This document shows, piece by piece, positions 2,811-51,331 of a DNA stretch of 64,000 nucleotides (position 1 is the first letter of the stretch; each line of letters opens with the position of its first letter). The position numbers were made by a program, and so were the translations under genes. The notes under the pieces are model-generated. The model made no database searches. It had not been told where the DNA came from and saw only the letters and a list, made by a program, of their open reading frames with translations. Origin of the DNA: Polytrichum commune (Eukaryota > Streptophyta > Polytrichopsida > Polytrichales > Polytrichaceae); contig OX485807.1 in the NCBI GenBank assembly GCA_950295325.1, positions 26,507,666-26,571,665 on the forward strand, written 5' to 3'.

Positions 2811-3346
2811 GTAGAAATACCATAACACGTTAACCACCCTCTAGCCGTGCACTAGACCGCCGTCATAATGGTGAAGTGCCACTTCTAAAACCGATTCATG
2901 CCTCAGCGGCAACTTCAATGCGTGTACACTTAGTGTAGCCAATGGGAGTCAAGTGTTAATGTACTCATGAGGTAACCGATTTAGACGATGTTATGTATGG
3001 AAATGCCGAGTACCGTGTTCGGTGTAGGGAGAATGTAGTGAACAAGTAGGGGGTTGGACAACTTTCCACTTTGAAAAATTGTAGCATTTTTGGTATAAAG
3101 CAGAAAATTATGAAACAACTTGCATTCTTCCTGAAATCGTCTCGTCTATCTTGGAAAATGATCTCATGATTGTTAGACCAGATCTTCAATGCGAATCATC
3201 TTATTTTCACGGGTTATGGTATTTCCACCTTAGGTGAAAAGAGATCCAGGCTTGCAAATGCAATTCAACAACCCTTCTTTTGAGGAAAAGAATTAAGATC
3301 AACAATTGTTGATTCAGACAAACTTGGTGACGGAATGCATGCCCAC
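2811..3346. other. No recognisable gene; target side of the retrotransposon
   Basis: AT-rich sequence with no convincing frame. It ends in GCCCAC immediately before the retrotransposon. The last four bases CCAC also follow the element at 11718-11721 and are a possible 4-bp target duplication. Confidence 0.4.
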
Positions 3347-3469
3347 TGTCACGGTATGCGGCGTCGAAGGCCGCACCTTATCCGTTGGGTTTCATCCATC
3401 TAGATTTGGATGGATGAATCTAGATGTGGAGAGGAAGGCTCCTAAGTGAGGAGCCTCCTCCTTGGCTTG

Positions 3470-3484
3470 GCATTCTTGCCAAGT
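3470..3484 (+). promoter_or_regulatory. Candidate self-primer segment in LTR transcript
   Basis: GCATTCTTGCCAAGT is the exact reverse complement of 3680-3694, which begins one base after the LTR homology ends. In Tf1-type Ty3/gypsy elements the RNA's own 5' region anneals to the primer-binding site and primes minus-strand synthesis. If transcripts begin near here the same mechanism could operate; I see no TATA box to fix the start. Confidence 0.4.
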
Positions 3485-3545
3485 CAAGTCTTGTGAGTTA
3501 GTGTGTGGAGAGAGCTTGTGTGAGGTGTAGATTGCATGATTTTGC

Positions 3546-3551
3546 AATAAA
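3546..3551 (+). terminator. Polyadenylation signal in LTR (copy at 11478-11483)
   Basis: AATAAA inside the shared LTR block. The 3' copy at 11478-11483 is correctly placed to end the genomic RNA downstream of the polypurine tract. Confidence 0.45.
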
Positions 3552-3679
3552 TCTTGAGTTCTTCTTCCCCTACTTACACTCTTGGATTCTCCCTTGGTGG
3601 AGTGAGAGATAGCTTGACTAATTTGTGTACATTTGAAGAGATTTAGAGCTATTGTGAGTGTTCTATTCTCTTCCTTCTC

Positions 3680-3694
3680 ACTTGGCAAGAATGC
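3680..3694 (+). promoter_or_regulatory. Candidate primer-binding site
   Basis: ACTTGGCAAGAATGC directly follows the last base shared by the two LTR copies. It contains the TGG expected for a tRNA-type site, but the following bases do not match a plant tRNA 3' end I recognise. It pairs perfectly over 15 nt with 3470-3484 of the element's own LTR, which favours self-priming over tRNA priming. Confidence 0.45.
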
Positions 3695-4400
3695 TTGATT
3701 CCTTCTCTTTTCTTCAAATCTTGAGCTACAACATTCAAGCAAGAGTGTGAGGACAAGTGGTGGCGGGATTGTGGAGTGGAGAACGACAAACATCGCGGAT
3801 TAGCGGAGCAACAAGAAGAAAAATGTGTGCTTGTGGAGTTTACACATCATTGTGAATTGTGGTGAGAAATCTCTAAATACTACACGGAATTTCTTGCCAT
3901 GAGTTGCCCACAAGCATGAATTTGTGAAGTGAAAGTTGTGGGGACATTCTTGATCCTCAAAAAGGGATCAAGTTTTGAAAAATAAAATAAAAATAAAAAC
4001 AAATACTTGTTGTCGCTGCTGCTGCTGTCCCTGCTACTGCTGTTGTCCCTGGTATAGTTGCTGCTGGCAAACCTGCTGCCGTGCCCAGTGGCTCGCGGCG
4101 ACTGTCTGCGGCTCGCGGCGGCAGTAGGCCAGAGCGGCAGACTGCAGGCCAGGGCAAGCAGACAGCAAGCCAGACCATCCAGGCTGCAGGCTAGAAGAGG
4201 GAGCTTTTCCTATCAATCCCACGGCTCAGGGCCAAGCTCCCGCAGCGGCGAGTACCTCGAGCCCCATTCTTCCACTGTTACGTTATGCCCAGGCTACCCA
4301 GGCGGCATTAGCTTCTTTAGGAGCTCCGTCGGGTTTTAATCCTCTACATGAATTCCAACTCCATTTGGAGAAGGAATATGGAGGCTTCCGCCGCGATCAA
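3695..4400 (+). other. Retrotransposon leader and ambiguous Gag N-terminus
   Basis: Untranslated leader followed by CTG/CAG-rich sequence near 4010-4080. The Gag frame is open from 4128, after a TAG at 4125-4127, and its residues before 4401 already look Gag-like (NPLHEFQLHLEKEYGGF), yet no in-frame ATG occurs there. A different frame has ATG at 4058 and is open to 4339. Gag may therefore start by a frameshift, at a non-AUG codon, through a spliced leader, or simply at 4401. Confidence 0.5.
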
Positions 4401-7400
4401 ATGCAGCGTATACAGGACTTTCGACGGGAGAAAGATGACACACCTCGTACCATGTACACGAGGTTGGCGAGGGAATCTGGAGGTGTTTTCGCCGAGAGCC
4501 AGTTGGTAAAGGTGTTTTTGTCCAAGATTGACAAACGCCTCCTTGACTTGGCGCTGCCCAAGATCATCATGGATTATGGTGGTCGGGCGACACTCGCAGA
4601 GGCATTCGCCATTGTGGAGCAGTGTGATCGTGCGTTGTGTCAACACGATGCCACTGATTTGGTGTCTCTGCTAGTAGATTCTAGCAAATCCCGAAGAGTT
4701 CCGGTTGCGGCTGCAGGATTGGCGGAGGCCGAGGTAGACAAGACCATGTATTGTTGGTCTTGTGGGCAGGCCGGCCATGCTAAGAAGGACTGCCCTTCGA
4801 AGCAAAGGCAAGCCCAGACCGTCACTACTCCGAAGCGGAAACCATTTGTTCCCGCTAAGGGCTCGGCGAAGGGGACGACGGGTAATCAGTTACCCAAGCA
4901 GTTGAAGTGTTCTCATTGTGGGCGGAACAATCACGCAGTAGAGAACTGCTTTGTTCTCCATCCTGAGAAACGTCCTTCTTCCGACCGGGAGAAGACGTTG
5001 GAGGCGAAGATTGGAGCCATGGAGGAGATGTTCAAAAGCTTGGCGTCATCCGGCCAAATCTTGGCCTCACCGTCTTCCTCCGGAGCTCAGGCTAGTTCTT
5101 CCACTCCGGATTACTATATGTTCGGAGCCTCGGGCGAGGTGGTGAGTTCCGCGGCCGTGACACGTGCTCAAGCCGTGTCACAATCTATACCTTCGACCAC
5201 AAATGAATATGTGGCAACCTCGCGAGCTCGGGACAATGCGCCCGCGGACCAAATTGGTCAGGCACGACTACCATTATCTTTTGGATTGGCCGATGCCGTC
5301 CAATCTGTCAGTGATCGTCATCCGAACGATGAGGTTTCACATTTAACGACCGATGTGGCGCACACGTTGGCATCCAAGGTGTTGCACACACCTTTGTTCA
5401 CGGCCATGGAGTGGTCATCGCCAGAGTTCCAACCTGCTAAGATTTTTCACTTAGCAGGTAGGATTTTGGAAGGGAAGGCATCCTTACCTTCTCTGACCGT
5501 GGCTCAAGCCACTACGGACATTCCTGCTTCCGAAGATCCTGAGGATGTGGCCAAATGGCGAGCGAGACTTGCGGCAGAGACCATTGCGTCTTTTGACGCA
5601 CACGCCTCAGATGACAAGGCACCGACCACGTCTTATGACTACCCAGTATCCGCGGGTGCAGCCTATCTGTCTGATGTCGCTGCTAGACTTGTCCGCGAAC
5701 GCCGCGGCATTCGACCCGGCGTTGTGCGTATGGTGAATGATACCGGAATTTTGGTGGTCAGTCGTACTGGGAGCAACGCTACTCGGGTTGCTCCCCGTTG
5801 TGTGATGATGGATTCAGGGGCACAGCCAGTTATGATCGGCAAGAGGCTTGCCCAAAAGTTGAGGTTGACGGCCGAGGATTTGGCTCCCTGTCCATTCACC
5901 ATTGTCACATCCATTGGTCACGTGGAGCGAGCCATGGGTTATACTCGAGAGCCATTACAGCTTAGCTTCCGAGTGAAGCCTGGAGATTCACCCGCACCTC
6001 TTCTTCTTAGGTGTGCGGTGACGGATGCGACCAACTATGACATTTTAGTTGGTCAGCAAGCACTTTACCCTCTTGGTTTTGGTTTGGACAACTGGACCGA
6101 GGAGGCGTGGATCCGACCAGGTTGGTCGGCTGGGGATGGCCGCAGGGAACTTATTCCCGTTGCTTTCGTGGCGGCCGTGACCATAGCACCATTATCTATG
6201 GTTTTTGGATGTGGTGCTATGGTGGACACATTGCCTTATGGTTCCGCATTGTTGGAGGAGTCATTGGCATTCATGGGGAGTACAGACGATCAACGGGATA
6301 TGACACCTAAGAATGCATTGGTGCGCCATCCCAAGGATTCCCTTCGTCCTTGGCGTGATTCCGCCGAGCTATTTCGGAGGTGCGAGGATATTGTTCACTC
6401 TCTCACTCCTAGAACACCGGTTATGCCGGGTGTCCTCTCGGCATTGGCACATCCCATTTTATGGCAGCCGCCAGACGCGGGAATTACTTTGGTGGAACTG
6501 TTTGGGGGCATCGGCACAGGCTTAGCGGCCGTATTGGAGGCTGGCCTCACGGTTAGACGGTATGTCTATGTGGACAACTCTCAAGTGTCCACCTGTGTGG
6601 CTCGTCACCATCTTCACCAATTGATGGTATTGTACCCCCAGCAGTTATCTCCAACTGCCATTTGTGGGTGTTTTTCACGTCTCCCTCGTGATGTGACACT
6701 CATCAGTGAGGCCGATTTACGACACTTAGGTCCGGTGGATATGGTGATTGCGGGATGGCCATGCCAGGGCCATTCACGTGCTGGAGCCGGCCGAGGTCTA
6801 GAGGATCCCAGGTCTAATTTATTTTGGGACCTCATCCGCCTCATACAGTGGTGGTTTTCCCACCAACATACCCCGCCAGGGTATATCTTCGAGAATGTAC
6901 CATTGTTGGGAGACTCTCGGGACAAGGTGTTGAAAGGCGATTATTATGTTCGTCAACACCTTGGAGATCCCATTTTTGTGGATGCCGCGAGCATTGGTTC
7001 TTATGCCCACCGGCCTCGGTGGATTTGGACCAACCTCGCACCGTCATCTATTTTAGCTGCAGCATTTTCTGCAGTGTCTCCACCTTTGGATCAAAAGGTG
7101 GATGACATCTTGGAGCCAAACCGGACTTCTTTGCCGGTTGTTCGAGATGATTTACCCCCGTTGGCATTGGTCAACAAAATCGGGGCACCGCGGCGGGCAT
7201 TTCCCACATTTATGACGTTTCCACAATCATTCGCTTTTCGCGATAGGGGGCCGGGTATGGTGTGGGATGTTCACACCAAAACCCACACCGAACCATTGGC
7301 TGACGAACGGGAGCGTGCCATGGGATTCCGCACTGGCACCACCGCAGCTCCCGGCCTTTCTGAGGGCCAACGACGCTTCGTGTTGGGCCAAGCTATGGAT

Positions 7401-7739
7401 CTTCATACCATGGTGTGGACTGTTGCTTTATGCCTTTCATTGCAAAGGCATCGTGGTGACCAGTGGTTGTCTCTGGGGGCAGAGGAATCTGGTCAGGGGG
7501 CACAGCGGTCCACACCCATGGAGGAGGGAATTCACGCCATGGTTGGAGAAGTTGAACGAATTTTTCAATTCAAGCAGCATGTGATGGAGGAGCTTCGAGC
7601 TCAACATGTTTACACCGCTTCGGTTTCTTCGCCTCCGGTGGTGGCTTCATCATCACATATTGGTGGTGATGAAGAACTGTCAGACTCTAGTGCTAGCACC
7701 GAGACTGGGGGCATAGTTAATGCCCCCTCCTCTCATTAG
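4401..7739 (+). CDS. Gag - protease - C5-cytosine DNA methyltransferase polyprotein
   Basis: About 1112 residues from the first in-frame ATG; the frame is open from 4128. Order: Gag capsid-like region (1-110); two CX2CX4HX4C zinc knuckles (CWSCGQAGHAKKDC at ~118-131, CSHCGRNNHAVENC at ~170-183) for RNA binding; linker; retropepsin-like protease with DSG at ~471-473; then a methyltransferase domain (~695-1020). The methyltransferase has motif I LFGGIGTGL (nt 6498-6524, AdoMet binding), motif IV GWPCQG with catalytic Cys at nt 6762-6764, motif VI FENVP, motif VIII-like HRPRW, and a C-terminal ERERAMGF...LGQAMDLHT stretch resembling motifs IX-X, with GQ where GN is usual. The catalytic residues recognised are present. 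The target-recognition region looks short (~95 residues). PCQ is DNMT1/bacterial-like, while the C-terminal region recalls DNMT3/DRM. The frame ends in UAG, in phase with pol. Confidence 0.92.
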   Translation: MQRIQDFRREKDDTPRTMYTRLARESGGVFAESQLVKVFLSKIDKRLLDLALPKIIMDYGGRATLAEAFAIVEQCDRALCQHDATDLVSLLVDSSKSRRVPVAAAGLAEAEVDKTMYCWSCGQAGHAKKDCPSKQRQAQTVTTPKRKPFVPAKGSAKGTTGNQLPKQLKCSHCGRNNHAVENCFVLHPEKRPSSDREKTLEAKIGAMEEMFKSLASSGQILASPSSSGAQASSSTPDYYMFGASGEVVSSAAVTRAQAVSQSIPSTTNEYVATSRARDNAPADQIGQARLPLSFGLADAVQSVSDRHPNDEVSHLTTDVAHTLASKVLHTPLFTAMEWSSPEFQPAKIFHLAGRILEGKASLPSLTVAQATTDIPASEDPEDVAKWRARLAAETIASFDAHASDDKAPTTSYDYPVSAGAAYLSDVAARLVRERRGIRPGVVRMVNDTGILVVSRTGSNATRVAPRCVMMDSGAQPVMIGKRLAQKLRLTAEDLAPCPFTIVTSIGHVERAMGYTREPLQLSFRVKPGDSPAPLLLRCAVTDATNYDILVGQQALYPLGFGLDNWTEEAWIRPGWSAGDGRRELIPVAFVAAVTIAPLSMVFGCGAMVDTLPYGSALLEESLAFMGSTDDQRDMTPKNALVRHPKDSLRPWRDSAELFRRCEDIVHSLTPRTPVMPGVLSALAHPILWQPPDAGITLVELFGGIGTGLAAVLEAGLTVRRYVYVDNSQVSTCVARHHLHQLMVLYPQQLSPTAICGCFSRLPRDVTLISEADLRHLGPVDMVIAGWPCQGHSRAGAGRGLEDPRSNLFWDLIRLIQWWFSHQHTPPGYIFENVPLLGDSRDKVLKGDYYVRQHLGDPIFVDAASIGSYAHRPRWIWTNLAPSSILAAAFSAVSPPLDQKVDDILEPNRTSLPVVRDDLPPLALVNKIGAPRRAFPTFMTFPQSFAFRDRGPGMVWDVHTKTHTEPLADERERAMGFRTGTTAAPGLSEGQRRFVLGQAMDLHTMVWTVALCLSLQRHRGDQWLSLGAEESGQGAQRSTPMEEGIHAMVGEVERIFQFKQHVMEELRAQHVYTASVSSPPVVASSSHIGGDEELSDSSASTETGGIVNAPSSH

Positions 7740-7745
7740 CAATTA
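7737..7745 (+). promoter_or_regulatory. TMV-type stop-codon readthrough signal (UAG CAA UUA)
   Basis: The gag-methyltransferase frame ends CAT TAG CAA TTA GAG and the same frame stays open to 10884. TAG CAA TTA fits the UAG-CAR-YYA leaky stop context known from tobamoviruses. The pol frame has no ATG until about nt 8088, already inside the reverse transcriptase, so pol needs readthrough rather than its own start. Confidence 0.8.
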
Positions 7746-10700
7746 GAGTCCGTGCCAGCACCAGGTGGCTCTCTTCTAGTGGAAAGGGAGACCACAGAGT
7801 TTGATGATTGGCCACTTGAATTAGGCCCTCGTCTCACTGGTGCTGAGGCACGGAAGGTACGGGCATTTATTCGCTCGTACCGTAGATGTTTTGCTTTTAG
7901 CCTTCAAGATCTTGAAGGTTATAAAGGAAAACCCATCCACATTCAGTTGGAGGACGACCATCCCATTTTTCGGAGACCTTACAGGCTCAGTGTTTCCGAG
8001 CGGATTGGCGTTCAGGCTCGTTGCCGAGAGCTCTTGGCAGCAGGGCTAATCGAACTTTCCAACGGGGAGTATGCTTGTGCTACGGTTATGCCATCGAAGA
8101 AGGATATCTTTGGCAATTGGACGGAGAAGCGGATGTGTGGGGATTACCGTCCAGTTAATCGGAAGACCAAGTCGGATCGGTATCCCATGCCGATCCCGGA
8201 GGAATTGTTCGATGCCATCGGATTTTCTCGGGTCTTTAGCACATTGGACTTGAGATCCGGATATCACCAACTTCCATTACTTACGGGAGATCGGGTGAAA
8301 ACCGCATTTTGGGGAGTTGATCAAAATGGGAAAGATCAACTTTATCATTGGAAGTTTCTTCCATTTGGCCTGAAGAATGCACCCGCTGAGTTTCAACGGG
8401 TGATGGATCAGGTTCTCTCTGGCTTGCCCTTTGCTCGGTGTTACATAGACGATGTGATCATCTTCAGCACAACACCACAGGAGCATGTGAGGCATTTGCA
8501 AGCCGTTTTTGAACGGTTGCAGCGGTGGGAACTGCGCTTGCACCACGGCAAGTGCAAGTTTTTCCATGACCGGTTGGCATATCTGGGGCATATGATTGTT
8601 CCAGGAGGTCTTGGGGTACAACAAGCTAAGGTGGACGCCTTGCAGAAGATTCCGGCACCGGTTGATGTGCCGAGACTTCGTGCTTTCTTGGGCTTGGCGA
8701 ATTACTATCGGCGATTCGTCAAGAACTTTAGCTTGATCGCCAAGCCTCTCACCATTCTCACGAGCAAGGACCAACCGTGGACTTGGGGTCGTGAGCAACA
8801 ACAGGCGTTTGAGACATTGAAGCAGAAACTGGGTACGGCTCCAGTGCTTCGACGTCCAGATGTCTCCAAATCTTTCCAGTTGCATACAGATTGGAGTTCA
8901 TTGGGTTTGGGAGCAGTTCTTACTCAGAAAGATGACGTTGGCCGGGAGTATGTTGTTGCTTACGCGTCGCGAAGCAACAACACGGCGGAGGCCAATTATT
9001 TGTCCTATGAGGGAGAAGCATTGGCGGCGGTGTGGGCTATTGCCCATTTCCGGCCATATCTTTATGGTCAACACTTTACTTTGGTGACTGACCATCAGCC
9101 GTTACGGTGGCTCATGGAGTCGGATAAGCTTACTGGCAAGCTTGCCAGGTGGGCTTTGTTGCTCCAGGAGTATGACTTTGAGGTGGTACACCGTGCTGGG
9201 ATTACCAACATGGATGCAGATGGACTCTCACGCAATCCAAATCCTTCGGATGAGGACTTGACCGGGGCCAGGTGGCATGGAGATTGTGATCGAGAGGCGG
9301 TTCCAGGTTGGCACGCGGCTGCCTACCTCACTTTATTTTCTGGTGCATCTGTTGAGATTCCGATACAGGGCTCGGATGATGAGACTGAACGGCCTCAAGC
9401 TATTGCGGATATATGGGAGGATCTTCCTGTATTGCATAAGCTTCAACAGGGTACCTTTCCTTTGTCTATTTCGGCAATGGAAAGGGATAGGATTGGACAT
9501 CGAATAACAAGGTTCCGTTGGGAGAACGGTTTGTTATTTCGATTGTGGCCGGATGGGACAAGGCGTATTGTTCCTAGGCCGGATCAGAGGGCCTCCTTGG
9601 TGCGACAAGTGCACGAGGAACTTGGCCATTTTGGCATACGCAGGACACATTCGATGTTGCGTGGCCAATATTGGTGGACTGGCATGTATCAGCAGGTGGC
9701 TGCATATGTCGGGAGGTGTGAAGTTTGTGACCGGGTCAGGTCTAGCTTTAACACCTTATCGCCTCAGTTACAGCCCTTACCTATCATGGGATTAGGCTAC
9801 CGTTGGTCGCTGGACTTTGCAGGGCCGTTGGTGGTTACACCACGTGGAGCAAAGTACGTTTTGGTGATGGTGGAGCATTTTAGCAAGTGGATTGAGCTTG
9901 TTGCTCTACCCCAGAACTCTGCAGAGTTGGCCGCGGCCGCCTTTTTGGATCGTGTGTTAGCACGTTTTGGAGCACCAGCTGAGGTGTTGACGGACCAAGG
10001 GAGGGAGTTCCTTGGTGCTTTTGAGGAGTTGTGCACTAAGGCTCTCATAGATCACCGCACCACCTCTCGGGATCATCCGGAGGCAGATGGCTTGGCTGAA
10101 CGGGTTGTTCAGACAACCAAGCGTGGCTTGAGGAAGTATGGATTACTTCGGGGAAGCCACCGGGATTGGGACCTTATGTTGCCATGGATTGCTATGGGCT
10201 ATCGATTTAGTAGGCAGGCCTCTTTGGCATCCTACAGCCCGTATCAATTATTGTATGGACGTGAGCCTATACTCCCGAGTTCTATTCGGGAAAAACTAGC
10301 TCCTGTTGTGAACTTGGATGACCCAGACCTTTGGGCAGAGTGTTTGCAGGAGCGGGCTCAATTCTTCCAGAGGGCCATGCCTATGGCCATGGAGAATTTG
10401 TCCATTGCTCAGCACCGTGACACATTGCGTTATGCACGCATTCGTAGTGGTGCTTACCGGCCTCAGTTGCGGAGATTTCGGCAAGGGGATTATGTTTATC
10501 TTCAACGTGAGGCGCCTACGACATTGGATGTCAGGGCGGGGCGCACTATCCTTCGGGTGAAGGAGGTGTTGCCAAGTGGTTTGTTGTTGTTGGAAGGCAA
10601 GGATGGCAGGGAATGTCGCGAGCATTCCAAAAATTGTGCCCCATGTCATCTACCTATTGAGGGTACAGTTCATCCTGAACTGGCCGTCGTACCAGAGGGT

Positions 10701-10886
10701 CTTCCATGTTTTGTGTGTGGAGAGAAGAAGGGAGCGGCTACTATGCTCTTGTGTGATCAGTGTCAACGCGGTTGGCACATGGCATGCTTGCGGCCACCCT
10801 TGACTTCTCTACCATCTGGACAGTGGAGTTGTCCTCACTGTCGAGGATCTTCGGGAGTTGGTGCTTCCACCAATCGTACTCAATGA
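7740..10886 (+). CDS. Pol: reverse transcriptase - RNase H - integrase - PHD finger (by readthrough)
   Basis: About 1048 codons in phase with the upstream frame. Residues are counted from 7752. Reverse transcriptase spans ~65-335 with LPFGLKNAPAEFQ and catalytic YIDD at 231-234. RNase H follows (~375-495, LHTDWSSLGLGAVL, TDHQPLRW, DADGLSR). Integrase has a zinc-binding H/H/C/C region (~621-659, CEVC), core Asp in SLDFAGP (688) and LTDQG (748), and Glu in DGLAER (783). An SH3-like tail (~905-965, RQGDYVYL) follows. The C-terminus is a C4HC3 PHD finger: C986, C989, C1001, C1004, H1009, C1012, C1027, C1030. Chromoviruses carry a chromodomain here; PHD fingers commonly read the histone H3 tail, so targeted integration is a fair inference. 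The frame ends in TGA at 10884-10886. There are no internal stops. Confidence 0.95.
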   Translation, partial: QLESVPAPGGSLLVERETTEFDDWPLELGPRLTGAEARKVRAFIRSYRRCFAFSLQDLEGYKGKPIHIQLEDDHPIFRRPYRLSVSERIGVQARCRELLAAGLIELSNGEYACATVMPSKKDIFGNWTEKRMCGDYRPVNRKTKSDRYPMPIPEELFDAIGFSRVFSTLDLRSGYHQLPLLTGDRVKTAFWGVDQNGKDQLYHWKFLPFGLKNAPAEFQRVMDQVLSGLPFARCYIDDVIIFSTTPQEHVRHLQAVFERLQRWELRLHHGKCKFFHDRLAYLGHMIVPGGLGVQQAKVDALQKIPAPVDVPRLRAFLGLANYYRRFVKNFSLIAKPLTILTSKDQPWTWGREQQQAFETLKQKLGTAPVLRRPDVSKSFQLHTDWSSLGLGAVLTQKDDVGREYVVAYASRSNNTAEANYLSYEGEALAAVWAIAHFRPYLYGQHFTLVTDHQPLRWLMESDKLTGKLARWALLLQEYDFEVVHRAGITNMDADGLSRNPNPSDEDLTGARWHGDCDREAVPGWHAAAYLTLFSGASVEIPIQGSDDETERPQAIADIWEDLPVLHKLQQGTFPLSISAMERDRIGHRITRFRWENGLLFRLWPDGTRRIVPRPDQRASLVRQVHEELGHFGIRRTHSMLRGQYWWTGMYQQVAAYVGRCEVCDRVRSSFNTLSPQLQPLPIMGLGYRWSLDFAGPLVVTPRGAKYVLVMVEHFSKWIELVALPQNSAELAAAAFLDRVLARFGAPAEVLTDQGREFLGAFEELCTKALIDHRTTSRDHPEADGLAERVVQTTKRGLRKYGLLRGSHRDWDLMLPWIAMGYRFSRQASLASYSPYQLLYGREPILPSSIREKLAPVVNLDDPDLWAECLQERAQFFQRAMPMAMENLSIAQHRDTLRYARIRSGAYRPQLRRFRQGDYVYLQREAPTTLDVRAGRTILRVKEVLPSGLLLLEGKDGRECREHSKNCAPCHLPIEGTVHPELAVVPEGLPCFVCGEKKGAATMLLCDQCQRGWHMACLRPPLTSLPSGQWSCPHCRGSSGVGASTNRTQ

Positions 10887-11160
10887 TCCTGTGTGATTTT
10901 CATCATCTTGTGCCTGCCCAAATGGAAAATGAGGAGTTATGGCTTAGAGACGCAATTATCATGAGGCGGTGGATTTAATTCTTTGGGATCTGATGGCCAA
11001 ACATCAGAGGCGATTAAGGATGGGGCTCACCTTGCACCCAGCCTACAGTTCCTTGGAATAACGTTTACCACACTAGTTAGTTGCGGAGCAATCTTTCATG
11101 ATCCATGCCCTTTAGATTGGCATTGGTCCTAGCTGCTTGGCGGGACTCCATAGTCAGCTG
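10887..11160 (+). other. Retrotransposon 3' untranslated region
   Basis: Non-coding sequence between the pol stop and the polypurine tract. No additional frame such as an env gene is seen. Confidence 0.6.
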
Positions 11161-11170
11161 AGGGGGGGCA
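11161..11170 (+). promoter_or_regulatory. Polypurine tract
   Basis: AGGGGGGGCA lies directly before TGTCGAGG at 11171, the expected position for the plus-strand primer at the border of a 3' LTR. This argues that the 3' LTR begins at 11171 rather than at 11279. Confidence 0.7.
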
Positions 11171-11276
11171 TGTCGAGGTGTGTTGTTTATGTGTGACTTT
11201 GCTATGTTTTAGTGTTGTTTGTTAGTGGTGGTTGGTACTCGAGCTGCAGTGACACACGATCGCTATTTACACGACA
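11171..11276 (+). repeat. 106-bp LTR block A, copy 1 (U3-like)
   Basis: Begins TGTCGAGG and ends CACGACA; identical to 11612-11717. It follows the polypurine tract, so it is the probable start of U3. No equivalent is present at the 5' end of the element. Confidence 0.75.
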
Positions 11277-11278
11277 GC

Positions 11279-11611
11279 TGTCACGGTATGCGGCGTCGAA
11301 GGCCGCACCTTATCCGTTGGGTTTCATCCATCTAGATTTGGATGGATGAATCTAGATGTGGAGAGGAAGGCTCCTAAGTGAGGAGCCTCCTCCTTGGCTT
11401 GGCATTCTTGCCAAGTCAAGTCTTGTGAGTTAGTGTGTGGAGAGAGCTTGTGTGAGGTGTAGATTGCATGATTTTGCAATAAATCTTGAGTTCTTCTTCC
11501 CCTACTTACACTCTTGGATTCTCCCTCGGTGGAGTGAGAGATAGCTTGACTAATTTGTGTACATTTGAAGAGATTTAGAGCTATTGTGAGTGTTCTACTC
11601 TCTTCCTTCTC
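11279..11611 (+). repeat. 3' LTR copy of the 333-bp block B
   Basis: Matches 3347-3679 with two substitutions. It includes the AATAAA and the hairpin of the 5' copy and is joined directly to a second block A. Confidence 0.85.
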
Positions 11612-11717
11612 TGTCGAGGTGTGTTGTTTATGTGTGACTTTGCTATGTTTTAGTGTTGTTTGTTAGTGGTGGTTGGTACTCGAGCTGCAGTGACACACGA
11701 TCGCTATTTACACGACA
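11612..11717 (+). repeat. 106-bp LTR block A, copy 2 (element terminus)
   Basis: Identical to 11171-11276. It is followed by CCACAC, matching the CCAC left flank, so it appears to be the true right end of the inserted DNA. Confidence 0.75.
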
Positions 11718-11917
11718 CCACACACTCTTGTTGCAGTCCCACCATGAGAGACTTCAGCATAACTTCAGAAGTTTACGTCCTAGTGGGGCATCATATGGTA
11801 GGGCTTACACTGAAGCCCTCTCGTAGTTAGGGCCGCTTTACATCTGGAGGCCATGCCAATTCGTTGTGTAAGAGGTTTGAAATCCTCACTTGTGATTGGC
11901 CAAAAGGCTGAAATCGG

Positions 11918-12366
11918 CCCCAATCCCTTTACACCTAGAGGTCGGGCCGATTTGGTGGTATGAAATTTTTAATCAAAAAATGCATGGTATGACACAGCCC
12001 GAGCTCATTGAATTGGGTGCACCCAAAATGGAAGGCCAATTCTTGGCCTTGGGGCCAATGTCAAATTTCAATATTTAAAAAAAAAAAAAAAAAATGTGAT
12101 TTCTTTAGCGAACTAAATCCATTGGATTATGTGGAAACATGAATGGCTCTATGCTAAATTATGCTAGATCCGTTGGATTATGCTAGATTTATTGAATCGG
12201 CCTAGCTTCTTGGCCCTAAGGCCTTTACATATGGGAAAATTGGCCCCCATTATAATCTTATTATAATGTGTAGTTGAGGCCGGCCTCCAACCCAAAAGGG
12301 GCTGAAATTTCATGCAATCGGCCTCAAGGGGAATTGGCCCGGTCTCTAGGTGTAAAACAACCCTTA
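11918..12366 (+). mobile_element. MITE, family B copy 1
   Basis: Terminal inverted repeats of ~25 bp (CTTTACACCTAGAGGTCGGG on the left, CCGGTCTCTAGGTGTAAAAC on the right). An inverted copy lies at 39110-39536 with the same internal features, including a poly-A run and repeated GCTAGAT-type motifs. There is no coding capacity. A further degenerate end-like sequence (GCCGCTTTACATCTGGAGG) lies at ~11831. Confidence 0.65.
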
Positions 12367-14224: not shown

Positions 14225-16700
14225 GGTTATTCAAATGTTGATATTTTGTAAACTTGGCACCGAGCACACAAATTTTAATTTTTTGGAGATTTTTCAAGAT
14301 AACTTCAAAAGCCTTGGGAATTCTTACCAAGGTCATTTGTAGTCGAAACAACTAATTTCAAACTTTTGCAAAGTTTTCAAAATCATTTTCAAAACATTGG
14401 GATGTGTTGCAAGGGTCATTTGTAAACAAGTTGAGAAAAATAAAGGAAATTGAGAAAGAAAAAAAAACTCAAAGGTACCCAAATGTTGATATTAGTTGTA
14501 TTGGCACCGAGATGACTCATTTCAAATTTTTGGAGAGTTTTCAAGTTCACTTTGAAAGCCCTGGGCAACATTGCAAGGGCCAATTCCAAACAATTTGAGA
14601 AATTTAACGAAAATTGTGAGAGAAACTTAGGAGTATCCAAATGTTATTATTAGTCACCTCTGGGACAGAAATGACTAATTTCAAATTTTTGGAGGGTTTT
14701 CAAAATCTCTTTGAAAGCCCTATGAAGCATTGTGAGAGACATATGTAAACAATTCTAGAAAAATATACAAAATGTTAGAGAAAAATAAGAGTACCCAAAT
14801 ATTGACACTAGTCACCTTGCCATTGAGATAACTAATTTCAATTTATCAAAGATTTGTAAAATCATTTTCTAAAGCTTTGGGAAGTGGAATGAAGGCACGG
14901 GTAGGTCACTCTAAGGCATTTTTGTGCACCACGTGCGGCTGGGGGTTTTTTGTTTTGGGGCTATTTACCTTCAAGGGCTGAATTAAAGCCTCCCTATAAT
15001 TACTTAAATTTCAAAAATGGCCCATTTGTTTGCACCCTTCCATTACTTATATTGTCCAAGTCACTGCAATTTTTTGTACTCTATATTCTTTTTAAGTAAT
15101 AAAAGCTAATCTACTTCCTAACGCATTGACGAGTGTTAAGGGAAACCATGGAAACAAAGAAGGGTGCAAACAATAATATCATTGCAAACAAAGTTATGAA
15201 GAAAACACATAGGAGACCATAGCAAACATACTAAACATACCTTCTAGGATCCTTATCTTCAACCCCTATATTAATTTTACAAAAAAATAATGGCCCACAT
15301 TTTATGTCCATCTAACTTACTTATAATGGGATTGTCTACATTTAATGGCCCCTTCATTATTTGGAATTCCTTTATAATTTTTATTTCAAATGATTTTAAT
15401 CCTCTCTATATTATGCCGCACGTCGTTTTTAAAATGCACTAAGTGACCTACCCATGAATGAAGGCCATTTTGTGAACAAATTGAGAAAAAGAAAGGAAAA
15501 TTTCATAGAAACTTAAGGGTACTCAAATTTTGATATTACTTACCTCAACATGGTGCCTAATTCAATTTCTTGAAAATTTGTAATTTTTTTATTAAAGCCC
15601 TTAGAAGCAATATGAGAGCCATTTGTAAACAATTTTAGAAAAAAATAAGGATTTTTTAGAGGAAACTTAAGATTACCAGATTTTGATGTTAGTCACTTTG
15701 GCACTGTGGGGCCTGATTTCAATTCTTTAAATATTTGTAAAATTATTTTTAAATCCCTAAGAAGCGCACAAGGCAATTTGTAAACAATGTGAGAAAAATA
15801 AAGAATGTTTTACGAGAAAGTTAAGAGTGCTCAAATTTTGATATTCCTCACCTCAACACATAGATGCCTAATCTCAATTTCTTGAATATTTTTAATTAAA
15901 AGAAAACAAGATTCTATGAAGTGGTACACAGGCCATTTGTAAACAATTTGAGAAAAATAAAGGAAATCATAGAGAAAATTAAATATTGCCCAAATTTGGA
16001 TTTCAATCATCTCAGCATTGAGGTGCCTAGTTCCAAATTCTTGAAGATGTCTGAAATTGCTTTTGAAATCCTACGAAAAATAAAGGATGTTTTTAGAGAG
16101 AATAATGATTACCCAAATTTTGATATTAGTCACCACGGCATAGAAGTGCTTAGTTTTAATTTCTTGAAGATTTGTAAAATCCTCTTTGAAGCCATGGGAA
16201 GCGTTGTGAGGACCATTTGTAAACAATTCGAGGGAAATAAAGGAATTTTTCATAGAAGCTTAAGAGTACCTAATGTTGATATTGCTCATTTTAGCACATA
16301 TGTGACTAATTCTAAGTTTTTGAAGAGTTTTCAAAATCACCATGAAAGCCCTTTGTAAACAATTTGAGAAAGATAAAGAAAATTTTCAAACAAAGTTAAG
16401 AGTAACCAAATTTTGATATTAGTACCTTGTTACCAAGGTGTGTACTTTCAATATTTTGAAGATTTGTAAAAAAAATTTGAAATCCCTGGGAAGGGTAGGG
16501 GAATTTGTAAACAATTTGAAAAAACAAAGGAAATTTTAAGAGAAAGTTAATAGTACCAAAATATTGATATTAGTCACCTCATCATCAAGACACCTGATTT
16601 CAAATTTCTTGAATATATTTATAAAATCATTTTAAAGCCATTTGTAATATAATTGATATGAGGGCCATTTGTAAAATAATTGAAAAAAATTAAAGGAAAT
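14225..16700 (+). repeat. ~155-bp tandem repeat array, decayed
   Basis: Units recur at about 150-160 bp. Each carries CCATTTGTAAACAATTTGAG, AAATAAAGGAAATTTT, a (A)GAGTACCCAAAT-like segment and ATTAGTCACCTC. Units begin near 14417, 14579, 14738, 15470, 15622, 15772, 15930, 16210, 16350, 16500 and 16660. Identity between units is modest, so the array is old. The longest open stretch (15921-16358) simply reads through repeat units and is not taken as a gene. Confidence 0.65.
14896..15456. mobile_element. hAT-type MITE inside the tandem array
   Basis: 561 bp with long TIRs: CACGGGTAGGTCACTCTAAG on the left, and CATGGGTAGGTCACTTAGTG as the inverse of the right end. An 8-bp target duplication AATGAAGG lies at 14888-14895 and 15457-15464. 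CA-starting TIRs and 8-bp duplications are typical of hAT elements. No open reading frame is present. Removing it joins two halves of an array unit. Confidence 0.78.
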
Positions 16701-17861
16701 TTTCAAAAAGGTGTTGAAGAACATTAGTTAGGACCTCCTTCTAAGTGAAGAATGATGTTACCTGAAAGAAATACAACTTGCAAGAAACTATGGAAAATAG
16801 GAGCAAGAAAGAAAGTGAATAAGTTGTTAAGAAAGGGGTGAATTTTTTTGAAAGATGGTCATAGACTATAGTCTAGAGAGTGCTTGTGAGAAGGCTATAG
16901 TCATTTTTTAGGAAGCTAAGGCTTTCTCAAGTCATATTCCAAATAATAGTTATTGATATCCAATAGTTGTAAGAAGTTGAAGTGATGGCTAGGAGACTTT
17001 TCCTTGTTGTTATATTCAACTAAGTGTTGTAACATGGAAGAATCCATGGCTTGAGTTGGATAAGATCCTAGAATAAGAAAGTGGATGATAAGAGACTGAA
17101 ATGAGACTATGGAGGGCTACAACTACATGATTATTCCTATAAAGAATAAGAAACTTATATGTAGCAAAGGAATTATCAACTACAATGGCGGGTTAAATGG
17201 ATCCTTTTGATAGAAAATATAAGAAAGCGAATGGAGCGATTTCTTCCTTCCTTAGGACCACTACTATCATGTAGATTTTTATTTGTTATATCCAATATAT
17301 TCCTTTTGGAAGACTGAACTTAGGTAACGGAAAATAAATAAATAAATAAATAATAAGAATCTATGGCGTGAGCTTAAGATTGGCTGAGGAAGAATCCAAA
17401 GTGAATATCTGTCAGTTAAGTCTGAGATGAAGAAGTTACCATCTCAAAAAGAAGATTTTTCTTGGATACATCACCAAGTGGATAAAGAAGGAGGTTTTAC
17501 TAGATGATGATTTTTTTTTATGGCTAACAGAAGCCCTACAAGTATATTGTCTCTTTAATTTTACAAAAATTGAAAGAATTGAATTTTACTTTTCAAACCA
17601 TTGTCTACTGAGAGTTATTGTAGGTCAAACAATAAATTATTTACCGGAAGTATGTTACGGGATACTTCACATATACTAAAGTCACATATACTAAAGTTAC
17701 ATATACTAAAGTTACATATGGAATAGAATGTAACGTCCATCTTGTCTTAAGTCTATTGTTTTACTAGTTATCGTAGAGGTGGAGAAGTTTGAAGTGGAGG
17801 AACATGGTATGATCATTAAACGTCTGGTATTACATCCTATCATCATGACACTTAAGAAGAC
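16701..17861. other. AT-rich, no recognisable gene
   Basis: Contains a short (AAAT)n run near 17335 and a small triplication of an ACATATACTAAAGT unit near 17669-17712. Nothing coding is recognisable. Confidence 0.45.
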
Positions 17862-31091: not shown

Positions 31092-34000
31092 CTATCTGCG
31101 GCGCTGCGAAAGCATCCTAAATTCCGCAATTGATGCAGCTATGGCAGCAGGTGGAAGCATCTCCCCTCGGTCAGACATTATCCCTGACATTCGCATGGCA
31201 AACTCCCTGGGTCCATCAATAGAAGGTGTACTAGGTAGTGAGAATGGTTCGCGCATAGGGGGGGGTTCCTGGAATGAAGATGAGGATAGCGTCGACATGC
31301 ATCGCCGACACCAATCTTCCATCTTCCTTTGAAACAACATATCTTTCAGCCGATTCCGCATGCCCTTGTAGAAATGATCCAGCTGAACCTGCACACTCAA
31401 AGAAAGCCACCTTGGTCAAGCAAGGACCACACCGATTGCACAACTACTTGCTGCTGATGAAATTACAAATCTCCACTAAACTTAACCCTAAACCCCAAAC
31501 CCTTTGTCATGAGGTTCAGATCTTCGGTATAAGATGGAGGTACATAGATTCCACTGCTATTATGTTTCAAAGCCTCCGGAGTTTGAAGAAATTCCTGGGG
31601 TCACAGATCCATCTGTAAGGGAGGAGTGGGATGCATTTCTTCATCTTCGTTACGTGCTGTTGATGTCACAATTGACATGGAATCTATCTATACATACTCT
31701 CTCAATACTTCATCAACATTTATAAACAAAACAGAGATGACAATCGCTTCAGTATCTCTAAATTCTGACATAATAAAGAAGTTCATCAAACCAATAAGCA
31801 ACCCACCAGCTCCTCGTCTGGTGCCATTTCAATCCGGCGATGCAAATCCTCAAGAGGTGTATTACTCTTTGCAGGTAGTCCATTGCTGTAACCATGCTCT
31901 GAGCTCGGCGCACCACCTCCTAATTCACCATAGATGGACTCTTGTGACTGGTTATACGAGAAAGTCTCCAGTCCTCCAAATATTGCAGAATGCAAGCTCT
32001 CTGCATACCGCCGGCAGTCAGCCAACTCAGCTTTCAAGGTGTTCATATCTCCCGATTGCATTGCCCCAAAAGTGTCGTAGCACTGGGCCAACTCTACTTT
32101 CGAGGCATGGACATCTTCTGATTGCATTGGCCCTGAATTGTCGTAACTTGCACTCTTGCTCATGCTTGTGCTTGCTGTGTCCATTCCTGCCACCAACACC
32201 CTGTTGGTTATATGACCATTTTGTGGACTGTTCAGAATCGATGCACAAAACTAGTCATCAGAAGCAAACTATTTGACATGTACACAAAAAGAGTTACTCA
32301 AAACTAATGCTTGTGTTTGTTAAAATGCTTCACAAGGGTGCCTGGACTACACCACAACTAGACGACTCATACCATCACAGAACCCCAACATCGAAGGATG
32401 CAGGTGTTATTTGGTTACTTCTCTTAATCATACAACTATATTTGATTGGTGTGTGATTTGGTGAAAATCAAAGAAGAAACACAATAAAAACACATGTTCA
32501 AAAAAGATTAGACTACATCTTCAGAATTTATAAAATATTCCACACTCAATAGTGAACGCAATTGATTCAGTTAAGGAATCCACAAACATGCACTTCCGAT
32601 AACCATAAGTATATCAGGGGAGGTCCAATTTGCAATCCAATTTTTGCTAAAGCTTCATGGTATCAATGTTCAAAGAACACTTACACATGATGGTACAAGG
32701 TAGACCATAAAATAAGAGCCAATCCATCCAAAGCTTAGAATTACATACTCGACACAGAGCAATCAAAAGGAAGCAGTCAAAACTACAACAAAACAAAAAA
32801 CATATCACACATGCGGCAATCTCCAACTGGTGGCAAGCCATTTGACCAGGGGTCAACAATCCACAAAGTCTCTGCATGGAAGAAGCCACCTTCCACAATA
32901 TGATCCCCACTGATGAGACTTCATCATCACTTCCCATTGAAAGTGGATATATCCTCACTTTTGATGAGTTTCTGATACTCATCTCCAGAGGTAAATGGGA
33001 ACTGAGAGCTTCATCAACAATACTTCAAAACTTCAAAGAGCGCACACACACATAAGCCTTGATGCATCACAGTTTATTTTCTTTTGTCAGTACCCATTAA
33101 AATTTATTTATTAAAAACCAATCAAAACCAAAAAAAACCAATTATAACTTTTTTAATCAAAAATCAAAAATAAAAATATTTTAAAAAGCCTCATCATACC
33201 AGTTTCTCTTCGGAACAATCTTGAGTCTTCGGAGTCTCGTTGCATCATCGGAGGCCGGAAATCGTCTCCCCTCCTAGATGGCTTGGTGAAATCAAAAGGT
33301 TTCCTAGAACTGGATTCACTTCTAGGTGGCCTGCTGCTATCCTCCAAATCTCGAAGGTAAGGCCTAACATCATCCCCCCTACCCTTAGACCCCGCTCGAC
33401 TGGACCCACGGCTTGACTTTCGCATCTCATACATTGTCTCCATGTCAGCTTGCTGATGCTGATGTTGCAAATTGTTGGCTCCGGTGGTAGAAGAAAAAGA
33501 AGAGCCAGGAGGCCATATGACACGACATGGAAACCAGCTATCGGAAGCATGTCCTAAGCCAAGAACACCACTCTGGCCATGGCCCCAAGCCCAGAGATCC
33601 CTCCCACCATTGGAAACCGTTACAGTGTGGGCAGCACCACATGCAATTCCCTTGGAACCCGTCACAGGGTGACACTTCGCAGAGGATTCACCAAAGACAC
33701 GCACAGGGATCAATGTGTCACCACTTCGGGAGCCAGGAGGTCCAATCCCCGGACATACCCCAAGGCCACCTTCCATGCCCCAAACCCACACATCACCTGT
33801 CTCGGTAACAACTCCGGTGTGATAAAGGCCACACACAACTGTCCTGAGTCTCTCTCGAACAGGTAAACCTTCCACCGGAGCTGGAGTGACCAAATTGACA
33901 GTACTGCCTTGACCAAGTTGGCCATTCTCACCTTGCCCAAAAGTCCAGCAAATGGAAATTCTTGCATCAAGACCTGAACTTTCCTTCCTCCCCGTAGTGG

Positions 34001-37000
34001 TTGCAATCCTGCTTCCCCAACCTCCCAGACTTGACAAGGAAGATTGTGACGAGCTTCGTGACCCAAGCTTTGGGGATTCATGATATGGGATGTACCCATT
34101 GCTATTACTATTGTTCTGCCCAGGATAAGGGTAACCTGGATAGCCCCCTTGCCTCGGACGCATCTTTGGTGATGACATAGCTTCAATGTACTGCTCTGGT
34201 GTTGGACGTCCTCGCTGTGTTGGAGATCCCATAAGCTTCGGATTACTGATACCCATCATCATTGGTTTCGGAGATCCCATCATCATTGGTTTTGGAGATC
34301 CCATCATTTGAGCCATCAGCTGTGGGGAAGGTTGCATTTTCCTCTGCATTGGTGATTGGGCGGGCTCCAACACCAGGTCGGATGGCTCGTCGTCTTTTGA
34401 AGTAACAATAGCACTGTGAAAGGCTCCACAAGCAAAGTCTATGATGGTGCCTACATGTGATCCAATAAGGGAGGAAATGAGGGTTGGGACGGCTCGTGGC
34501 TCCAGATCTCCCAGACCAAGCTGGCCAGAAGAATTGCTGCCCCAGGCATAGCACTCGGATGAGTTTCGGCCCTCTACAAGAGCCAGGATGTGCTCATTCC
34601 CGCAGGCCACTCGGGTAACTTTGAAAGCTAGAAATGAAAGCACTCGCTCTGGTTTCTCGATGTTGGTGATGGAGAAGGTGCCTTTGTTGTAGGACCTGGA
34701 TTCTGGATCTTGCAATTCGGCTGATGGTGGAGGGACTGCTCCCCATAGCCACAGACCGCCTTCTTGGTCCACCGCACATGATATCATTCCTCCTGCTTCC
34801 ACCAGCATTATCTAAACATGTGCCGGGACATGCAGTGGGGAACAGCTTGTGAGAATCCGACGGCACTTCGACTGACAATCAACATGACACATTCAGGTAC
34901 AAACATTTTGCTCTATGTCTTGTTCCATTCACAATTACAATGCAAAGTTCTTTTTCCTCTCCATCCTAGCCTCAGCACAGATTTTCGAAATAAAACACAA
35001 GAAATGATTCCTCTCTCTTCCACCAGCATTTTCTAGACATGTGTCTGGTACATAAAGTAGGGAACGGCTTGTGGGAATCTGACAGCACTTCGATTGACAA
35101 TCATTAACACGACAGTATCAGGAACAGGGTATTTGCTCTAGGACTTGTTCCTCCATGCCAAAGTCCTTCCATTCACAATTGTGCAAAAATAATTCTCTCA
35201 ATCCTATTCTCAGCACAGAATTTCAAAGGAGGGAGAGAGAGCAAAAGGAGGGGGGGGGGGGGTGTACCTTAGGATGCTTGTCATCACCATCCCGGCCAGC
35301 CTGACTCCAGAACTTCCCACCCTTTCGACCATCGTCTTGGACGGAGGTCTTGACAGAGGAAAACTTAATAGGTGCAGGAAATGATGCTGACTTTTCGCGA
35401 CCCAGCTGACCGTCCATGTTTCAATTAAGAAAAAAACACTTGGGACAGGTTTGAATCACATTAGAACTTGTTCATTAATTTGTACCGAGTATAACATACT
35501 ATCTTTGACCCAAAAACCCATGAAAAATCCTAAAATTCATCTCTATTTGAAAGTAAATCAACAACAACACAAGTGCACGTGCCACTATCAACAAACCCAG
35601 CTACAATCAAATCGATATGGAGACTTCGAAATAAAATAGCGGAGCTGGATACAGGCATTGTATCCCCACGACCACACCGTCCCATCACCTAATAAAATCC
35701 AACACAACATCGCATCAGAAAATGTCGAAATTACACAACCACTCCTACAGAGAACTGCAAAATGCTTCCTTTGCATAATTTTGAGCAACTAAAACACCCT
35801 CTCAAGATGTTTAAGCAATTGAGTAATCCTCTAACTCAAACATGACTTCTGGTTGTGGTTGGTTGTTTTGCATACTACACCTTCCATGTTCGGTAAGTTT
35901 TCAGTGCATCTTGGAGGTAGTGTGGAAGTTTGAATAAGGAAAATTCTATATCAGTTCATTGGCATGACAAGAGGTGCTACAATGAGTTTGACCCTCAATG
36001 AGCCAAAATAGGTTGCTCTTCATTCACATTCAAACACTAACCCCGAGGGTACACCATCACAGATGGAAAGCAAATTATTGATATTGTATGCAAACAACCA
36101 ATCAAAGGGGAGAACTCAAGGATAACTCTAATGGCTAGTGTTGTATTTTTATTTTCATATTGCACCTGCTAAAGCCAGGCTGTGATATGATCCGGCTGCA
36201 GCTTGCACGATTTTCAAGCGCTGGGCAGCACCATCCCTGTCTCGCAGTAGTGGCCCGGAACGACCGTCATCTCGGTTGGAGACATCGGAGTAGGAGCTTT
36301 GGGAGTCATCATCTTCATCCCCACAGGCTCCTATCTCCACAATGCTTGGAACATGCTCATCCTGCGAAACGCCAATACCAAGGCGCCCGAACAGCCCTCG
36401 CCCCCAGGTGTACAGGCTGCCGCTGGCTGTATTGACAAAAAAATAAAAAAATCTGCCCAATTAGACAGAGGTCCCCGCAAATGGCAACCACCTTGAAATT
36501 ACTAAGAACTAACACTTCTGCGAGGTATAAGCTGTGTATATAAACCACAAACACTAATGGGGTTGCCAAACTTAACTCGACCTCAAGCTCAAAAAGAATT
36601 TGAGCCCTTACATGTGCCTCCCTTAAAAAATGGAGCTTTCTCTCAAGTTCGTCCCCGCTCTTTTTGGAAGAATTTTCAAGTTCCAGCCCGAACTTGAACT
36701 TGTAGTCATGTCAAGTCCGATGACTGCAAGGTCAAGTTTGGGCTTGAACTTGATGGCAATCACTCCAAAATAAGAAGGAACCAATCTCCAAACGCTTTTA
36801 CGTTGGCCCGCCAAATTTGCAAGCTTGAGCTTGAGTTTGAGGTCTGTGTAGAGCTCAAGCCAAGTTTGGTGGGCCAAGGGAAAAGAATATGAGCCTTCAT
36901 GTGTGCCTCAGGTGGCGGAGCTTGGTTCCTTCTCATTTTGAAACGATTTTCATCAAGTTCAAGTTCCGGCTTGAACTTGACAATTGATCCAAAATAAGCG

Positions 37001-39109: not shown

Positions 39110-39536
39110 ACGGCCGCTTCACACCTAGAGGCCGGGCCAATTGCATGAAATTCCAGCCCCTTTTGGGTTGGAGGCCGGCCTCAACTACACATTAGAATAA
39201 GTTTATAATGGGGGCCAATTTTTCCATACGTAAAGGCCTTAGGGTCAAGAAGCTAGGCCGATTCAATAAATCTAGCATAGTTCAACGGATCTAGCATATT
39301 CTAGCATAGGGTCGTTCGTTTTTTCACATAATCCAATGGACATGATTCGTTAAAAATCATATTTTATTAAAGAAATTTTTTTTATTAAAACTTTATAGTG
39401 GTCCCGAGGTCAAGAATCGGCCTTCCATTTTGGGTGCATCCGATTCAACGAGCTCGGGCCGTGTCAGACTGTGCATTTTTTTTTTTTTAAATTCATACCA
39501 CCAAATCAGCCCAGCCTCTAGGTGTAAAGCAGCCGT
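39110..39536 (-). mobile_element. MITE, family B copy 2
   Basis: Inverted copy of 11918-12366. Termini ACGGCCGCTTCACACCTAGA and CTCTAGGTGTAAAGCAGCCG are inverted repeats. The body keeps GGCCGGCCTCAACTACACAT and CCATTTTGGGTGCATC. No coding capacity. Confidence 0.7.
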
Positions 39537-51100: not shown

Positions 51101-51331
51101 CAACCTTAGCCGCCATTATCTAAATCCCTAGATCTAAGGGTCTTAGATCCGATTATTGCGGCATGACGAATTACATGTCCAGAATGACGCGAACCTGAAT
51201 GACATCCACCTGTGTTATGCATGTGTCATTCGCGATGGACGGAAAAGTGACATCCGTGGGGGGGGGGGGCAACCTGTTTTTTTGATCTGACATGCCCCCA
51301 GAAGTTCGTTGGGGGTACTTTAGTGTCCCCC
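48181..51331. mobile_element. Mutator-like foldback element with 9-bp target duplication
   Basis: 3.15 kb with arms of about 830 bp (48181-49010 and 50508-51331) that are close inverted copies. Termini GGGGGAAACTAAAGTACCCC and GGGGTACTTTAGTGTCCCCC. A perfect 9-bp duplication CTGGGTAAC lies at 48172-48180 and 51332-51340. Long TIRs and a 9-bp duplication are typical of Mutator-like elements. The centre holds further partial copies of the arm (49020-49130, 49440-49590) and a direct pair (49586-49710, 50380-50505). No transposase frame was found. Confidence 0.85.

Follow-up and report, generated by a model that had tools for sequence, protein, structure and literature searches.

The closest described system to the retrotransposon reported here is KnitGypsy-Dnmt3 of Klebsormidium nitens, a gypsy element that bears a DNA methyltransferase (DNMT) and DIRS-like repeats, according to the text of de Mendoza et al. 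(2018, PMC5890265). Methylases in elements with permuted repeats are described in the same text for SymbioDIRS-Dnmt3, and in the text of PMC3266345 for DIRS1, with SymbioLINE-Dnmt (PMC5890265) as a counterexample. For DIRS-type elements, the 2018 authors proposed that the complementary DNA (cDNA) is methylated before integration (PMC5890265). The text of PMC12344493 mentions DNMT3 in retrotransposons with reference to PMC5890265, but says Copia where the 2018 text has Gypsy. The text of PMC6317226 reports the chromovirus Tcn1 from mosses and club-mosses. A search of open-licence PMC text for DNMT-bearing retrotransposons listed PMC5890265 alone, and searches of such text showed no case from a land plant. 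DNA methylation normally silences transposons, and why some of them keep a methylase under selection has been an open question since 2018. Here, we describe a stretch of 64,000 nucleotides from Polytrichum commune (GenBank assembly GCA_950295325.1, contig OX485807.1, positions 26,507,666 to 26,571,665 of the forward strand; hereafter the window), in which positions 3347-11717 (+) are a Ty3/gypsy retrotransposon carrying a cytosine-5 DNA methyltransferase. Capture of a DNMT by a gypsy element is not new in kind, since the kind is known from a charophyte, and an earlier note on this DNA had rightly stated that retrotransposons capture such enzymes (main text of PMC5890265). What is added is a different plant host, a PHD finger, a conserved UAG-CAAUUA, a self-primer and, above all, evidence pointing to joined cDNA ends. 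Why the methylase is kept can be tested in a plant family that has at least 110 recognisable DNMT copies, young ones among them, and a chromosome-scale assembly.

The element, its methyltransferase and its family

The element is composed of the following parts (window coordinates; strand in brackets).

3343..3346 (no strand): left target duplication CCAC, equal to 11718-11721
3347..3679 (+): left repeat block A1, starting TGTCACGG, 99.4% identical to A2 (self-comparison match from 3346)
3470..3484 (+): candidate self-primer GCATTCTTGCCAAGT, perfect complement of 3680-3694
3546..3551 (+): AATAAA, candidate poly(A) signal, with a second copy at 11478-11483
3680..3694 (+): candidate primer-binding site, directly 3' of A1
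4128..7739 (+): open reading frame ORF1 with Gag remnant, protease and DNMT, without the Gag start in the window copy
4752..4793 (+): CCHC zinc knuckle of Gag (PF00098, E 0.0028, under the Pfam cut-off)
5805..5825 (+): aspartic protease motif MMDSGAQ, read from the sequence (Pfam protease E 0.03-0.06, under the cut-off)
6480..7450 (+): DNMT3-like cytosine-5 methyltransferase domain (PF00145, E 9.1e-13; PDB DNMT3A, 1.1e-11)
7737..7745 (+): UAG CAA UUA, a stop that translation may read through; 20 of 21 copies share this context
7740..10886 (+): ORF2, in the ORF1 frame, with reverse transcriptase (RT), RNase H, integrase zinc and core domains and a PHD finger
10707..10841 (+): PHD finger 3' of the integrase (PF00628, E 2.2e-10; PDB CHD4, 3.5e-17)
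11159..11170 (+): polypurine tract TGAGGGGGGGCA, kept at the A2-B2 join of copy L056
11171..11276 (+): repeat block B1, identical to B2
11273..11282 (no strand): palindrome GACAGCTGTC at the B1-GC-A2 boundary, putative integrase opening site, its halves being the outer ends of the element
11279..11611 (+): repeat block A2, ending TTCTC (self-comparison match from 11278)
11612..11717 (+): repeat block B2, right end ACACGACA
11718..11721 (no strand): right target duplication CCAC, equal to the left copy

According to Pfam, RT, RNase H and then integrase (H2C2 and rve core) lie in a single polyprotein, the arrangement by which Ty3/gypsy elements are recognised. Among Pfam matches up to E=0.1, there is no chromodomain, a PHD finger standing 3' of the integrase instead, and no tyrosine recombinase, the rve integrase being present. 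The earlier note had described a young Ty3/gypsy element with a C5-methyltransferase at 6480..7450, between protease and UAG and in one frame with Gag. The domains, the near-identical repeats and the frame 4128-7739, which ends at UAG 7737-7739, bear this out. Its reading of near-identical blocks as long terminal repeats (LTRs) stands for the identity (2 of 333 bases differ between A1 and A2 and 0 of 106 between B1 and B2 in the window copy) but not for two ordinary LTRs, as self-comparison gives the order A-coding-B-A-B, which legends of PMC5890265 show for DIRS-type elements. The window copy has lost the ATG and 178 Gag codons; the stretches flanking this loss are 1491 bp apart in copy L009, and the break has an 8-base overlap. 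A Gag opening MVTTR was seen in 5 of the 9 copies inspected. The element has a ratio of observed to expected CpG of 0.74, compared with 0.50 for the remaining window sequence; this fits a recent insertion and is no test of self-methylation. An antisense open frame of 202 amino acids overlies the RT region (8277-8885, -).

Regarding expression, CAAUUA follows the UAG in 20 of 21 copies, the exception (L019) having an insertion there. We take UAG-CAAUUA to be a read-through context of the tobacco mosaic virus type. Judged from this context, the UAG is probably leaky, with Pol in frame past the stop. Because the DNMT is located before the UAG, it would be made at the level of Gag, and leakage would supply Pol at a lower level.

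In the profile search that the earlier note had suggested, the methyltransferase scores 48.8 bits with PF00145, whose cut-off is 22 (E=9.1e-13). The motifs it had listed are all present as described, namely LFGGIGTGL (6498-6524), PCQ (6759-6767), ENV (6891-6899) and HRPRW (7008-7022), and, together with a motif X-like GQAMD, they stand in unrearranged order; the motif names are those that we presume to fit these blocks. Among PDB matches, DNMT3A and DNMT3B rank first (E of about 1e-11 at best), followed by 4onj (8e-8), which we take to be a DRM, a bacterial enzyme (1e-6), HaeIII (3e-5), HhaI (1e-4) and chains named DRM2 (3e-4); none named DNMT1 or CMT is among the 51 PDB sequences listed up to E=1. 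A profile of 20 copies gave the same top family order as the single sequence. AlphaFold on the 20-copy alignment returned a pLDDT of 41 and a pTM of 0.42. Searches with the single protein found no relative among viral contigs, whereas the 20-copy alignment found one distant methylase there (L044, IMG/VR); a search of genome contigs for relatives of the DNMT found none.

The 373-residue DNMT stretch was used as a query against the genome (407.8 Mb in 64 contigs), nearly all of which (406 of 408 Mb) lies in seven contigs of 78, 70, 59, 59, 53, 45 and 42 Mb. From 622 first-look candidates, at least 110 scored matches of 67-100% identity were obtained. The earlier note had named a domain found in this copy alone as an outcome that would refute it, and this is not the case. 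By hand count, 52 of the 110 carry no in-frame stop and 58 carry one or more. Twenty whole copies, all of them stop-free and high in this list, were fetched. WPCQGHS persists in every one of the 21 copies read, the window's included; the glutamate of ENV is altered in L022. Ratios of non-synonymous to synonymous change (dN/dS) were calculated pairwise with NG86 as ratios of means, with L019 dropped for its insertion and out-of-register copies dropped region by region. The values are 0.27 for the methyltransferase (20 copies), 0.14 for RT-RNase H (19), 0.42 for the integrase (17), 0.43 for the protease (18) and 0.49 for the PHD finger (12). The linker between DNMT and UAG (7449-7736), which provides a contrast from the same copies and frame, has a dN/dS of 1.28 over 20 copies, with a low dS, and shows no sign of constraint. 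Stops occur in 5 of 20 linkers and in 0 of 20 methyltransferases, the latter by choice of the copies. Trees of DNMT and RT from 20 copies (19 fetched and that of the window, L019 being left out) sorted only subfamilies, and the two sets of distances correlate at 0.67 (171 of 190 pairs).

Two alternatives concern the enzyme. It is DNMT3-like by its rank among PDB matches; pairwise, a phage methylase scores as close, but capture from a phage or bacterium, instead of from a host DNMT3, is unlikely. A pelagiphage (marine phage) methylase reaches 75.5 bits (26% over 216 columns) against 66.6 bits for a DNMT3A piece (29% over 190 columns), the phage records that match with an E of 1e-3 or lower number 479, the best at 5e-13, and WPCQGHS recurs in the IMG/VR methylase L044. 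However, DNMT3A and DNMT3B lead the PDB list with HaeIII and HhaI far behind, the pelagiphage enzyme is itself about equally similar to DNMT3B and HhaI, and the K. nitens relative was placed near DNMT3 by its authors, according to their main text (PMC5890265). Of the enzyme type, which the earlier note had called unclear, a DNMT3-like character with DRM next in rank can be stated; because the phage methylase is pairwise as close as the DNMT3A piece, the enzyme may descend from either side. A DNMT carried as a passive passenger without a present role is very improbable. Many copies are broken, as the 58 matches with stops indicate, and activity is predicted only; nevertheless, dN/dS, measured in the same copies, is far lower in the DNMT than in the linker next to it, the catalytic PCQ persists in all 21, and pairwise dN/dS includes neutral post-insertion change, so that the real constraint is stronger.

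Repeat arrangement and replication

Repeats were surveyed in 41 copies (40 fetched and that of the window), 34 of which have a readable 3' end: 27 are B-A-B, six are B only (L010, L022, L026, L028, L064 and L066) and one is shortened (L062). An accident of the window copy is ruled out as the source of the permuted repeats, the arrangement being family-wide, and an ordinary two-LTR structure is ruled out by the A-coding-B-A-B order. The element ends in TG...CA with 4-bp target duplications, yet its repeats are permuted and do not form two full LTRs. All 30 copies with both ends read start at the start of A and stop at the end of B; the duplication is exact in 27, and L025, L022 and L060 agree at 3 of 4 bases. 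This survey excludes L049 and L051 (left end not found), L050 (without a right end), and L011 and unreadable copies (no left end fetched). Because the duplications flank the A-start and B-end termini, integration uses these and not ends at the polypurine tract and primer site. Two single cases were also seen. In L062 with L071, the 284-bp 3' stretch passes straight into B at its position 233; polypurine tract and A2 are absent, yet there is an exact duplication ACTT. L024 with L039 is a copy inserted in the linker of another DNMT element, with an exact duplication CAGC.

The 15 nucleotides following A1 are a perfect complement of A1 3470-3484. Of the 17 copies examined for this, 13 pair perfectly over 12 nucleotides. 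Two G-U pairs occur in L024 and a single mismatch in L022; L013 and L028 are not scorable. A random 12-mer was complemented in A in 1 of 20000 trials. The last base of the primer pairs with the A following TTCTC; synthesis would therefore start from TTCTC, the very point at which A2 stops. At the other end, the polypurine tract adjoins B. The A2-B2 join is precise, TTCTC meeting TGTCGAGG, in 22 of 27 copies, some with point changes. The five imprecise joins all differ: 24 nucleotides of A are missing in L012 and about 4 in L050, 3 are extra in L023 and 7 in L049, and L056, with an exact duplication CCTT, has the 12-nucleotide polypurine tract between TTCTC and TGTCGAGG. Such varied joins are what end joining of cDNA should leave in the copies.

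These features make it fairly probable that the two ends of a self-primed cDNA are linked to each other and that the integrase then opens the product at an internal palindrome. A 12-15-nucleotide stretch of A would prime reverse transcription at the site just after A1, and the cDNA would end at TTCTC and begin, at the polypurine tract, at TGTCGAGG. Ordinary LTR replication would then yield (B-GC-A)-coding-(B-GC-A) with the ends TGTCGAGG and TTCTC. Joining of these two ends would give the A2-B2 join and an end-joined, probably circular, intermediate. The integrase would ignore the cDNA ends, cut within the left LTR at its internal palindrome, ACGACA-GC-TGTCAC, and insert there, and reopening at this palindrome with loss of GC would leave the observed termini. 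On this model, opening would have occurred at the palindrome of the left LTR in each of the 23 B-A-B copies whose two ends were read, which random opening would not give. The same proposal would have the DNMT packaged and methylating the new cDNA before integration; such self-methylation of new copies is a plausible idea. The PHD finger, closest in sequence to those of CHD4 and PHF12 in the PDB, would tether the integrase to chromatin as chromodomains do in chromoviruses, and may be a stand-in for a chromodomain in targeting.

The same joins and termini bear on two other explanations of the repeats. DIRS-like templated replication, in which an RNA spanning A1-B2 carries the whole A-coding-B-A-B including the join into each round, is unlikely. 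It would account for the finding of A-coding-B-A-B alone among all 23 copies, and for the identity of most joins (22 of 27), but a primer site after A1 puts B2 outside the copied part, the imprecise joins are all different, one of them with a polypurine tract, and A2 ends exactly at the primer-predicted position. DIRS elements, moreover, have a tyrosine recombinase and no target duplication according to the text of PMC3266345, whereas a DDE integrase and duplications in 27 of 30 copies are found here. It is highly improbable that the permuted repeats arose by post-insertion recombination between tandem or ordinary two-LTR copies. Unequal repeat exchange is common and could yield the B-only copies; however, the duplications lie exactly at the A start and the B end in 27 of 30 copies, and no ordinary B-A-coding-B-A copy is among the 30.

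Several observations weigh against the joined-cDNA proposal. The primer segment can self-fold, and the cDNA, circle, RNA and protein are all predicted from genomic copies. The A-B-A-coding-B isomer is found in 0 of 23 copies, where random opening of a two-LTR circle predicts half; random opening is doubtful, and because of the missing isomer a step of joining or opening must be missing from the model. Either the left site would be marked or exposed, or joining and opening would be coupled. For the six B-only copies, recombination of B1 with B2 at a later time is one possible origin; alternatively, they may be one-LTR circles or double cuts. On the side of the enzyme, the intactness of the DNMT is partly due to selection, the copies having been chosen as stop-free, and stops occur in 11 of 19 in-register copies of RT-RNase H and in 7 of 17 of the integrase. 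The K. nitens relative was inactive in yeast, a result that its authors call inconclusive in the main text (PMC5890265).

Joined cDNA is usually regarded as a dead end in LTR biology; the permuted ends suggest that, with a DDE integrase, it can be a routine source of insertions. A broader idea, which we offer tentatively and consider unlikely, is an LTR lineage with DDE integrase whose normal route is circular, end-joined cDNA reopened at an internal palindrome, with the methylase acting on the circle. If this were true, a methylation mark on one LTR might even be what restricts opening to the left site. The element would also be tied to DIRS1, SymbioDIRS-Dnmt3 and KnitGypsy-Dnmt3, which combine permuted repeats with a methylase, suggesting that methylase capture recurs as circular intermediates need it, with SymbioLINE-Dnmt as the counterexample.

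Neighbouring features of the window

Positions 1-940 hold tandem leucine-rich repeat units of about 144 bp, 83-86% alike and R13L1/DRL21- and RPS2-like in Pfam, resembling plant disease-resistance proteins. An open frame of 552 amino acids with RCC1 repeats (PF00415, E 2e-35) lies at 33153-34811 (-), and a protein-kinase fragment (family match) at 55049-55459 (+), presumably like plant MKK3. An inverted repeat of about 830 bp and 94% identity (48181-49012 and 50500-51331) perhaps forms the arms of another mobile element. An interspersed repeat occurs in opposite orientation at 11927-12323 and 39135-39529 (85% identity), its first copy beginning about 200 bp right of the retrotransposon, and degenerate repeats of one family, 65-73% alike, occupy 14351-14884 and 15458-16705.

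Comparison with known systems

As an enzyme, the DNMT shares with DNMT3A, DNMT3B and plant DRM the top PDB matches and alignable motifs I to VIII; it has PCQ where DNMT3A has PCN and is not rearranged, unlike DRM. With Tcn1 and the Tf1/sushi chromoviruses, the element shares Ty3/gypsy membership and predicted self-priming (text of PMC6317226), and differs from their description there by a PHD finger in place of a chromodomain, the extra DNMT and the permuted repeats. The DIRS1-like/PAT elements likewise have permuted repeats and an inferred circular intermediate, and DIRS1 has a methyltransferase domain; their tyrosine recombinase and lack of target duplication, as given in the text of PMC3266345, are both unlike the element described here. 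SymbioDIRS-Dnmt3 of dinoflagellates similarly combines a DNMT3 with split repeats, and its DNMT methylates CG in yeast, but it has a tyrosine recombinase and a DNMT located in Pol, in contrast to the DDE integrase and Ty3/gypsy Pol found here (main text of PMC5890265). KnitGypsy-Dnmt3 shares the Gypsy domain content, a DNMT3-related methyltransferase and purifying selection on it, as well as A-coding-B-A-B repeats, which are seen in 27 of 34 copies here and are given for KnitGypsy in the text and legends of PMC5890265. Measured against that description, the P. commune element is distinguished by its PHD finger (the term PHD is absent from the main text of PMC5890265), its self-primer and its 4-bp target duplications, and by a DNMT that precedes the UAG in one frame with Gag and protease; Pol follows the UAG in the same frame. 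The host also sets the two apart by description, the element residing here in a plant genome of 40% GC with long gene-poor stretches.

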